Shown here piece by piece: positions 15,827-55,667 of a stretch of 64,000 nucleotides of DNA. How positions within the stretch are numbered: position 1 is the first letter of the stretch; each line of letters begins with the position of its first letter. The notes beneath the pieces were generated by a model, which saw only the letters and a list, made by a program, of their open reading frames with translations, did not search any database and was not told where the DNA came from. Made by a program: the position numbers and the translations under genes. Source of the DNA: Sulfodiicoccus acidiphilus (GTDB taxonomy: Archaea > Thermoproteota > Thermoprotei_A > Sulfolobales > Sulfolobaceae); the NCBI RefSeq assembly GCF_003967175.1, contig NZ_AP018553.1, forward strand, positions 186,001 through 250,000, written 5' to 3'.

Positions 15827-16112
15827 TTACAAACCGACGAAGGCCTCGCCCTTCTAGAGTCAGGGACCACAATTCCAACAACGATTTTCCTAAGACTTCC
15901 TCCCGGGAGCCAACGACGTCCCTCCACAGTTCGACCTAGGGCCAGACTAAAAACTTGAGGGACGAACAGTCCCCCCTTTCCACCGAACTAGATGCCATCG
16001 ATGGAGGTTCCCTTCGTCAATTTCTAACGGGCCTCCCCTCAGATCAACCAACCGTCCACCTAACGAGACCGGAATCGATGGAGGGAACGGCGAAACCCTT
16101 GGAGGAGGAACC
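15827..16112 (+). repeat. 286-bp exact repeat, copy 1 (3'-truncated type A element)
   Basis: Identical base for base to 52112-52397 as far as I can read it, an offset of exactly 36,285 bp in the same orientation. It is a diverged member of the type A element family (compare 35491-35823): shared landmarks are the CCTCGCCCTT block near its start, CCAACGACGTC in the first third, and a CGATGGAGGGAAC block near its end. Copy 2 continues to the usual end of the family; this copy breaks off after ggaggaggaacc. Confidence 0.9.
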
Positions 16113-16464
16113 CTATAGCAAGGGGGAAGTGGGGCTTAACGCAGTAGTGTAGAACGTGGAGTAGAATTGAGTAGGTAGTACAGAAAAGTGTGGCTCACCT
16201 ACGGATATACCTGAATCTCGATCACTCTTCCACTCTTCTATTTCGTGTCCTAAAAGCACTCGGAAAAGGCCGAAGTTGGTCACCGTTGGTTTAATTGCAC
16301 CTACGGTCATGAGAACAGTAGGGTATTGTAGCTGTCACCAACCTAAAAAGGTGGGTCTCTCTGAGCCTCTCGACTGCCCCTAATGAGAGATGTAGTCCTG
16401 ATGCGATGAGAAATCCCTTAGACTGGGAGGAATTGATCAGATATGGAACTCCGTATTAAGGTTC
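16113..16464. other. Gene-poor spacer
   Basis: No convincing gene or RNA. A 65-codon open frame exists on the minus strand (about 16310-16113) that reads somewhat protein-like, but it runs into the 286-bp repeat boundary and has no recognisable family. The same applies to 15286-15665 and 15719-15826, apart from the promoter listed. Confidence 0.4.
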
Positions 16465-17925: not shown

Positions 17926-18212
17926 AGGTTGAGGGGGCGGAAGTCCCCTTCCGTGGGGACGGACAGCCCCCTTATGTAAACCTCTTTACGGTTGTCAAAA
18001 TACTATTTCTACGACCTCTACTGTGAGAGCTGGGTCGCACCCTCTGGGCTGGGGGAACTCACGCCCGTAGAGAGGAAACCCTCCGCGATCCCCCTTCCGT
18101 ACTGTTCACAGAAAGGTTCCACCGAACCTCCGCTACGTAAGGAGATCGAGGTTCCTCCGAGGTGCGGGACTCACCGCGAGGACGCCCCGTCCGCGAGGGC
18201 GGGGTAGTTCAC
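17925..18212 (+). mobile_element. Type B short element, copy 1
   Basis: About 288 bp without a gene. Head: a long two-part hairpin (outer GGGGGC/GCCCCC, inner GTCCCC/GGGGAC with a TTCCGT loop, 17933-17971). Tail: a CCCCG/CGGGG hairpin ending GGGGTAGTTCAC, the mirror image of the GTGAACTACCCC ends of archaeal IS200/IS605-type elements. Nearly identical to the minus-strand copy at 30674-30964. Frames inside it are not conserved in the weaker copies, so I treat it as non-coding. Confidence 0.7.
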
Positions 18213-18234
18213 TAACTTCCTACCGTGCTTCGAA

Positions 18235-18569
18235 CTGACTTCCTCCCCGCCCTGGAAGGGACGAGGGTTCCCTCCCAAAGGGATCGTCGTTCCCACCATC
18301 GGTTCGGGATTACATCCCTCATCTGGTGGGCAGTCGAGTGGATCAGAGATCCACTCCCATTTGAAGAGGAGGGGACTTTCACCCATTACGTCTAGTCCCT
18401 TAAGAGAAGGAGATAATAGCTGCTCCTCCCTCAGTCCCATTAAACCTTAGATCGAGCTGGGGAGGAGCGTCGTTAGTACCACTAAGAGAAATTTTACAAA
18501 GAAGTATAAATATGAGGGGGCTGTCCGTCCCCGCCGTGAAGGGCGAGGCTTTCCGCCCCCTCAACCCCC
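18235..18569 (-). mobile_element. Type A element, copy 1, downstream of truncated tnpB (omega-RNA-like)
   Basis: About 335 bp on the minus strand, starting GGTTGAGGGGGCGG and ending GGGCGGGGAGGAAGTCAG. It follows the truncated tnpB of the IS607 element in the same orientation, the place where a TnpB element carries its right end and omega RNA. Closely similar to 35491-35823. Its tail faces the tail of the type B element with only 22 bp between. The omega-RNA reading is inference from position and structure. Confidence 0.65.
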
Positions 18570-19270
18570 CTCTCTGTAAAGGACTGTATTCTACCCCTCT
18601 TCAACTCCATACCGTACTTCAAGCTGTACAATTCCTTCAAGGAAAACGTGACGAACTTATCACCGTCATATGCGTCCAACGTGTAAATGTTGCTATCAAT
18701 TGCTAGGAAATCTAGGGGAGTTGAACGAGGTAACTTGTAACGGAACGGCAAGTACACCTCGTCCTCCTTTATCACGGGCTCACCCAACTCAAGTCCCTTA
18801 ACTCGTCTGGAGAACCAAGTGTGAGACCAAGAGTAGGTAATATACTCGCGAGGTCTTACAGTAATCCTTACGCTCGCACCATCGACCTTCCTAAGCGTCG
18901 ACTTTATTCTGACGTAAACCTCCTTCAATCTAGGTTTCCTCAACGACTTTCCCTTCTCAGCCCTCCTCTTCCAACTCCTCAATATTGAGTAAGCATCATT
19001 CATTGCCTTATCCGCGTAGTGGGAAGCTAGAATGTTGATCTTCTCCAACTCGTCCCTCAACGTCTTGTACATTTCTTTCTTCGGTAAGGTTACTTTGACC
19101 TTCGTGGCTTTCTTACCTTTCTACACTTTCTTCCTCTCAACTTTCACCCTCCCTCACAACCGGTCTAACGCTTTCCGTAGTAGGACTCTGCAGTTCTCTA
19201 GTAGTACCTTACTTTCCTCCCTCTTATCGTTCTTTATGGAGTACGTTAGGTAAAAGAACTCCTCTGGTTG
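18570..19270 (-). pseudogene. IS607-type tnpB, truncated and frameshifted
   Basis: Accessory RNA-guided nuclease gene of the element, decayed. An N-terminal fragment (EFFYLTYSIKNDKREE..., about 19240-19140) ends in stop codons; a longer frame (from about 19108, VKVTLPKKEMYKTLRDELEK) runs to the RuvC-I region LDFLAIDSNIYTLDAYDG, then enters the type A element after KRGRIQSF. The RuvC-II, zinc-finger and RuvC-III parts are missing. So no active TnpB can be made here. Confidence 0.8.
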
Positions 19271-35328: not shown

Positions 35329-35490
35329 TACGACCCACTCCCTTATTGCATACTTTCCTATTAAGTTTACGATCTCGTTAAATGTGAGCATGATAATCTG
35401 GTTTTCAATAAACAAGTAAAAAGAGGACGTCGATAAGAAGACTATCATTCGTGTCCCTGCGTTAAAAGAAGAGCTACGTTTACAAAAATT

Positions 35491-35823
35491 GGGGTTAAGG
35501 GGGCGGAAAGCCTCGCCCTTCACGGGGGTGAACAGCCCCCTTGTATTTATACTTCTTTGTGAAATTTCTCTTAGTGGTACTAACGACGCTCCTCCCCAGC
35601 TCGATCGAGGGCTTAACGGGACTGTGGGAGGAGCAACCATCGTCTCTCTTCTCTCTTAAGGGACTAGAGCTTTGCGATGAAAGTCCCCTCCTCTTCAAAT
35701 GGGAGTGGATCTCTGATCCACTCGACTGCCCACCAAACGAGACATGTAAACCCGAACCGATGGTGGGAACGACGATCCCTTTGGGAGGGAACCATCGCCC
35801 TTCCAGGGCGGGGAGGAAGTCAG
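35491..35823 (+). mobile_element. Type A element, copy 2
   Basis: 333 bp, no gene. Head GGGGTTAAGGGGGCGG with a hairpin, body shared with copy 1 (TGAAATTTCTCTTAGTGGTAC, CTCCTCCCCAGCTCGATC), a conserved block CCCGAACCGATGGTGGGAAC and the tail CCAGGGCGGGGAGGAAGTCAG. Similar to 18235-18569 at most positions. Lacks tnpA and tnpB altogether, so it is either a transposon-mobilised miniature element or a stand-alone omega-like RNA gene. Confidence 0.7.
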
Positions 35824-35845
35824 AATGAGCACCTATAGACCTCTT

Positions 35846-35960
35846 CTAACTTCCTCGCCACCCCGGAAGGGATTCCTCCACGGTGATTACCACCGTCGAT
35901 CTAGGGGCTGCGGCCATCGTTTGGTGGAAGTATGTAGTCTAGAGAACTTTCACTTACATA
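35846..35960 (-). mobile_element. Type A tail fragment, reverse orientation
   Basis: On the minus strand a GACGGTGGTAATCACC block leads to CGAGGAAGTTAG, the tail of a type A element. It faces the tail of the copy at 35491-35823 with about 22 bp between, and abuts the head of the type B element at 35961. Confidence 0.45.
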
Positions 35961-42318: not shown

Positions 42319-42643
42319 TGGGTTGAGGTGGGGAAAACCTCGCCCTTTAGGGCATGGAAGGAGGGCCCCTTATATTTAAATATTAGTTTTTAAAAAATCT
42401 TCTCAGAGATACCAACGACGTCTCTCCACCAACTCCACTGGGGCCTCAACGGGACTTAGGGAGAGAGACGAACAACATTCTTCCTTATTCCCTCCTCAAG
42501 AGATTTGGAGCTCAGCGACGAAAGTCCCCTTTTCACGTGGGAGAGTTCCCCCCCACCGCTCACCGGAGACGCGATCCCGAACCGACGGTGGTAACCACGA
42601 CACCTTTGCAGTAGAACCCCTTCCAGGGCGGAGAGGAAGTCAG
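42319..42643 (+). mobile_element. Type A element, copy 3
   Basis: About 325 bp. Head GGTTGAGGTGGGGAAAACC..., CCAACGACGTC block, CCCGAACCGACGGTGG block and tail CCAGGGCGGAGAGGAAGTCAG. Diverged from copies 1 and 2 but complete. Stands in the spacer between radA and the transketolase/shikimate operon, without any transposase. 42050-42318 holds nothing else recognisable. Confidence 0.6.
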
Positions 42644-52111: not shown

Positions 52112-52420
52112 TTACAAACCGACGAAGGCCTCGCCCTTCTAGAGTCAGGGACCACAATTCCAACAACGATTTTCCTAAGACTTCCTCCCGGGAGCCAACG
52201 ACGTCCCTCCACAGTTCGACCTAGGGCCAGACTAAAAACTTGAGGGACGAACAGTCCCCCCTTTCCACCGAACTAGATGCCATCGATGGAGGTTCCCTTC
52301 GTCAATTTCTAACGGGCCTCCCCTCAGATCAACCAACCGTCCACCTAACGAGACCGGAATCGATGGAGGGAACGGCGAAACCCTTGGAGGAGGAACCTTC
52401 TAGGGTGGGAATGAAATCAC
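52112..52420 (+). mobile_element. Type A element with the 286-bp exact repeat, copy 2
   Basis: 52112-52397 equals 15827-16112. Unlike that copy it continues into the family tail (CTTCTAGGGTGGGAATGAAATCAC, compare CTTCCAGGGCGGGGAGGAAGTCAG at 35791-35823). So this is the complete version and 15827 the truncated one. No gene inside; the 52421-52538 spacer shows nothing more. Confidence 0.75.
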
Positions 52421-55330: not shown

Positions 55331-55489
55331 TTAAAAAGTTTGATAACTAATAGATCTATAAGCGTCCACTATTTCGTCTATGCCGCCTTGCAGGGATCGA
55401 AAGCCTTGACTTCAGATCGGGGATGGTGATTTAATTTACTTTTGAAAATCTCTTTCTCATCGATATTGACGTTTTAACTCTACGGAAAA

Positions 55490-55667
55490 ACTGGAGGAGG
55501 GGCATAGGCGAGCTTATCCCCTAATCGGAATCAGATCTAACTAAGGATCCCCACCACTCAAGTGGGGCATTTCTGACCCATCTGCTCAATTGGGTTGTAA
55601 CCCCGAATCTGTGGTGAGAACTATGAACCATGTGGAAGGGAACTCTTAATGGTGGGGAGAAAGTCAG
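55490..55667 (+). mobile_element. Type A element, 3' half
   Basis: Blocks CCCCGAATCTGTGGTGAGAAC and the tail ATGGTGGGGAGAAAGTCAG match the last half of type A elements. The 5' half is not recognisable. Confidence 0.45.

Follow-up and report, generated by a model that had tools for sequence, protein, structure and literature searches.

The repeat at positions 35,484–35,823 of the window (the whole 64,000-nt stretch of Sulfodiicoccus acidiphilus DNA that was analysed) is a non-autonomous element of the IS200/IS605 type, resembling the palindrome-associated transposable elements (PATEs), as judged from the lack of a transposase, a fixed target, subterminal hairpins and ends shared with autonomous elements. 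Between its ends it carries a TATA-like box and two structured domains, a middle domain (R2) and an omega-RNA-like scaffold (R1). Homology, covariation and the promoter-like box lead us to propose, as the somewhat favoured reading, that this TnpA-mobilised miniature element makes its own omega RNA, which would be used in trans by TnpB against the empty donor site.

The genome of S. acidiphilus HS-1 (Sulfolobaceae) comprises 2,353,189 bases in one contig (PMC6647314). With positions 35,491–35,823 as BLASTN query, the whole genome yielded 41 matches, of which 33 extend over the full length with 88–100% identity, and covariance models recovered 125 matches to R1 and 84 to R2. R2 lies directly 5′ of R1 in 80 of the 84 R2 matches, which amounts to ∼80 R2–R1 units in the genome; chance as the source of the family matches is excluded. 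An earlier note on this DNA had listed several repeats in the window and suggested a covariance model built from all copies. Models for R1 and R2 built from the family recovered every one of these repeats, which are thus real (Table 1), while their extent had been understated with regard to the ∼80 units, the additional RNA domain, the promoter-like box and the family-wide spread. An R2 match at 55,434–55,562 is at chance level only (E 0.048). In the alignment, the copies differ by discrete blocks shared in varying combinations, and they may thus have undergone recombination or gene conversion with one another. The window also holds a second type of miniature element (17,930–18,215; GGGGGCGGAAGTCCCC... 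to GGGCGGGGTAGTTCACT), with an end similar to the right ends of IS605 in S. islandicus (TTCAC).

Table 1 Features of the element family in the window
Feature	Position	Strand	Observation
Main copy, complete miniature element of 340 nt, no conserved ORF	35484-35823	+	directly after TTAC
TTAC target and left cleavage site, presumed TAM	35480-35483	+	36/36 copies; STSV3 empty site
Left-end subterminal hairpin (GGGGGC...GCCCCC)	35499-35540	+	AAAG at 35507-35510, before inner stem
TATA-like box TTTATACT	35546-35553	+	TATA statistics of divergent copies
Middle RNA domain, model R2	35549-35698	+	compensatory changes; R2 window match
R2 helices of main copy	35571-35583, 35588-35634, 35660-35687	+	
Omega-RNA-like scaffold, model R1	35695-35823	+	E 2.5e-39; ends GGGCGGGGAGGAAGTCAG = right end
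Presumed guide, flank just past right end	35824-35843	+	sequence differs in 36/36 copies
Second complete element, inside tnpB of another family	18235-18575	-	
Domains of the 18.2-kb copy	R1 18235-18364, R2 18361-18507	-	R1 E 3.9e-39
5′ part of different-family tnpB, interrupted by 18.2-kb copy	18580-19072	-	
Diverged copy, R2 + R1	42380-42643	+	R2 42380-42536, R1 42533-42643
Diverged copy, R2 + R1	52164-52420	+	R2 52164-52306, R1 52307-52420
Partial copy, R1 scaffold only	55558-55667	+	R1 match
Decayed copy, R2 + R1	15879-16133	+	R2 15879-16021, R1 16022-16133
Further R1 scaffold remnant, absent from the earlier note	16343-16453	+	
Decayed inverted R1 scaffold, shortly downstream of main copy	35846-35960	-	

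The 36 intact copies checked all follow directly on TTAC, end with GTCAG and show no target duplication, and their right flanks are all different. Of two archaeal viruses, STSV4 contains a copy of 356 nt and STSV3 the exact empty site TTTAC/GTAAAGG (alignment of 340 nt, 98%). At this viral empty site 23 nt of the guide are identical and adjoin TTAC, which is one exact case. Two further empty sites occur in a genome of the same genus (G001), where the joined flanks could be aligned across the junction (158 nt, 72%, gapless; 170 nt, 71%, 3 gap positions). AAAG is found ahead of the left hairpin in 84 of 94 copies, as in IS608 of Helicobacter pylori, for which the rule holds that the left guide tetranucleotide pairs with the target. 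The intact tnpA element (locus L113, ∼1390–1460) seems to be inserted behind TGAC, with CAAG ahead of its left hairpin; set against TTAC and AAAG of the miniature element, this combination is consistent with the IS608 pairing rule. Right cleavage is at TCAA in IS608 and at TCAG in the miniature element. The target TTAC is shared with IS608 (PMC8612924), while the miniature element, unlike IS608, encodes no proteins. It contains no transposase gene and gave no Pfam hit, and a coding gene was ruled out, since the longest ORFs of the copies spread over all six frames. The genome has one intact gene for a Y1 transposase (TnpA), located in an IS605 element with a frameshifted tnpB, and the right end of this element matches positions 296–333 of the miniature element. 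Mobilisation of the element by TnpA in trans is predicted, and at the level of sequence it is well supported. In agreement with the earlier note, which had considered the stand-alone copies as possible miniature transposons moved by TnpA, they are transposase-free and have TnpA-type ends.

The copy at 18.2 kb, located behind a truncated tnpB in the same orientation, had been likened to an omega RNA of that gene. However, this copy is equipped with a left end and a TTAC of its own and is embedded in a tnpB of another family, and its joined flanks give a near-gapless alignment (gapless at the junction) to four element-free paralogues. On these grounds a role as omega RNA of its neighbour is rejected; the copy is an insertion into an unrelated tnpB.

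The elements with tnpB only, from relatives and from this genome, share the left end (positions 1–87) and the right-end scaffold (208–280 and 305–333) with the miniature element, but not its middle part, and R2 was absent from all tnpB elements examined. The conserved 3′ block, previously read as a scaffold, corresponds to the 3′ end of these tnpB elements. R1 overlaps the tnpB stop codon, with an offset of 42–81 nt in the near-complete tnpB genes examined, which is the geometry of reRNA (PMC8612924; PMC11043419). A full tnpB element with the same right end, the absence of which would have counted against the reading of the earlier note, is found at 1,030,094–1,031,355 (1,262 nt), and on this point the reading stands. 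The tnpB element follows TTAC, ends with GGGCGGGGAGGAAGTCAG, and its uninterrupted gene encodes a TnpB of 381 aa with RuvC D/E/D and zinc-ribbon motifs. Homology to TnpB and Cas12f proteins of solved structure was found for the TnpB of a relative. The closest tnpB in this genome is IS1341-like, i.e. without tnpA. While the scaffold of the resident intact TnpB has the stem CCCCTC/GAGGGG and no extra 24-nt hairpin, the miniature scaffolds have CCCACC/GGTGGG together with this hairpin, like tnpB elements of other genera. This mismatch in scaffold subtype raises a specific doubt as to whether the resident TnpB would use the RNA of the miniature element.

Two domain alignments were used for the structure of R1 and R2 in place of one fold of the 40 diverged copies. 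R1 represents a structured scaffold formed by the 3′ 129 nt of the element. The miniature copies alone gave moderate covariation, in a count that undercounts the helix near the right end and has the column pair 105–119 one base out of register. With the rows linked to tnpB included, double changes were found in 16 of 24 pairs and none of 500 shuffles reached the score, although this alignment was fitted to the model and is hence biased towards structure. For R2, 94.1% of the cells are paired compared to 44–53% when the alignment is slid, and 30 cells with double changes were observed where 10.2 were expected; one stem, for example, changes from GGGACT/AGTCCC to GGGATCC/GGATCCC. On this strand 74 G-U pairs stand against 25 A-C mismatches, an excess that fixes the strand and by itself does not separate RNA from single-stranded DNA. 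Rfam at gathering score returned only two tRNAs for the whole window, and no HEARO/IscB RNA or any other family on the element, so that a known RNA family was rejected; R2 is a conserved RNA domain without an Rfam match in this window. Stand-alone omega RNAs have reportedly been described for IscB.

A TATA-like box precedes the first R2 helix in 29 of 39 divergent copies, compared to 5.6 expected from shuffles. In 25 of the 29 box-bearing copies its distance to helix 1 is 25–29 nt, the usual distance from TATA box to start in archaea, and a transcript would thus begin at R2. Since the elements with tnpB only share the same left end, the box is probably the tnpB promoter.

We propose that TnpA acting in trans would recognise the left and right subterminal hairpins, cut out the single strand bounded by TTAC and TCAG, and insert it behind another TTAC, by which each insertion would gain a new downstream guide. 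From the TATA box, which would derive from the tnpB promoter, an RNA of ∼250 nt would be made, consisting of R2, R1 and the flanking guide, with whatever role R2 may have in it. TnpB of an autonomous relative would bind the scaffold and cut the empty donor site (TTAC and guide) left by excision, and repair after the cut would copy the element back. For a Sulfolobus IS605 TnpB, ∼113 nt of such a scaffold are needed, and RNA supplied from a separate plasmid works (PMC11043419). Transcripts overlapping tnpB in sense orientation were observed in S. islandicus at IS605-type but not at IS1341-type genes (PMC11043419), and the IS1341-like type of the closest tnpB here speaks against an RNA made by the element itself.

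Among 25 genomes of Sulfolobaceae, R2 was found in 16 (nine genera), while 16 genomes from other families of the same order gave no match. Copy number is loosely related to the presence of TnpB and TnpA. Genome G003 has 17 copies, seven near-full-length TnpB genes and a broken TnpA; G012 has 7 copies, some of them young, with an intact TnpA and only broken or fragmentary tnpB matches of this family; and in G001, G007, G009 and G013 copies are present and a close TnpB was not found. That copies persist in genomes with a broken TnpB of this kind (G012) or with none also argues against an RNA of the element's own, and would be expected of a plain TnpA-dependent miniature transposon without functional guide RNA, in which the scaffold would be a remainder from the right end of tnpB and the helices would act in the single-stranded DNA intermediate or have no function. 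The ends and empty sites fully explain mobility, and selection on single-stranded DNA might in principle also account for the compensated helices. TnpA needs the ends only, however, while R2 shows compensatory changes over several genera, which arose in non-autonomous copies, given that none of the tnpB elements examined has R2, and the TATA box keeps a nearly fixed distance to the first helix. We consider such a plain transposon unlikely, but it is the most serious competitor of the omega-RNA reading. As a more tentative extension of the latter, which we would not yet bet on, dozens of dispersed guide-RNA genes with a promoter, R2 as a dedicated extra domain and different guides, but no TnpB, could supply a single cellular TnpB in trans and protect every copy; this would constitute a distributed, transposon-borne guide repertoire of a parasite of a parasite.

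The flank downstream of the right end had also been noted as guide-like, in agreement with its difference in all 36 copies, and matches to other sites had been considered. Such a match exists at the viral empty site, whereas in the genome no further TTAC-linked site turned up for any of the 36 guides. For the guide of the 18.2-kb copy, three tnpB loci agree in all but one of 20 nt, but these are tnpB paralogues, and the aligned paralogue has TCGC instead of TTAC at the TAM position. Matches of guides to viruses are at chance level, except for a conserved tnpB. The 36 distinct guides in the genome and the element copies in viruses would suit a recruitment of the guides for other targets, that is, host regulation or defence by chromosomal guide RNAs; given the lack of targets among these matches, we regard this as very improbable. 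That the copies are random decay products of full tnpB elements, of which many decayed genes are present, is hardly credible and already contradicted by the conserved domain, which corresponds to no part of tnpB in the elements examined and recurs with similar element length over at least nine genera.

IS200/IS605 elements consisting of ends only and lacking a transposase are already known as PATEs, with one of 271 nt in Halanaerobium hydrogeniformans (PMC7290912) and others in Haloquadratum (PMC3119063). Since the Halanaerobium PATE keeps 58 nt of tnpB and the right end (PMC7290912), it probably carries an omega-RNA scaffold. The element described here differs by an additional conserved RNA domain, a placed TATA box, ∼80 units in one genome and its occurrence in at least nine genera. 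PATEs are said to have been mentioned together with Geobacillus IS605 elements. Also known are the Sulfolobus mobile non-inverted-repeat elements SMN1 and SMN2 (PMC3718332; PMC3839810). SMN1 (320 bp) was seen to move (cited in PMC3718332), and SMN2 is similar in kind; mobilisation in trans by a transposase is assumed for both, of IS200 type for SMN2; the passages on these elements describe no guide-RNA role (PMC3718332; PMC3839810). No BLASTN similarity to the element was seen for the repeats of pMGB1 presumed to be SMN2 (257 nt, 97% alike), which speaks against identity with SMN2; SMN1 was compared by description only. Judged by sequence, the element has the features of reRNA or omega RNA of ISDra2 (PMC8612924) and S. 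islandicus TnpB7 (PMC11043419): a scaffold of conserved structure that spans the 3′ end of tnpB and the right end, a presumed guide outside the right end that, in one exact viral case, equals the empty site by the TAM, and a presumed TAM that is the insertion site. In contrast to these, the miniature element encodes the scaffold without tnpB and has a separate 5′ domain. As far as literature searches show, an RNA built of two domains, a promoter-like box in a set place, a high copy number and family-wide conservation are new for such elements. If the proposal is true, non-autonomous transposons keep a guide RNA beyond the ends alone, and guided cutting of empty sites benefits an RNA gene even without a nuclease gene. 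With ∼80 genomic guides for one nuclease, such a natural system would stand as an intermediate step from omega RNAs to CRISPR-like repertoires.

Outside the Sulfolobaceae, a Marsarchaeota G1 metagenome-assembled genome contains at least six copies, due to either inter-phylum transfer or binning contamination, and two viral metagenome contigs (IMG/VR) carry copies of the element. Copies in G020 and G024 have an IS110-family element inserted at one and the same point (GGGGAG/GAAGTCAG), and its end sequence is common to six G020 and two G024 copies, four of which were followed through the insertion. The constant downstream sequence of these copies, considered as a fixed guide, is in fact this inserted IS110 element. 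Another IS110-family element splits a copy in G015 near position 103, and the IS110 insertions look like site-specific targeting of the miniature element.
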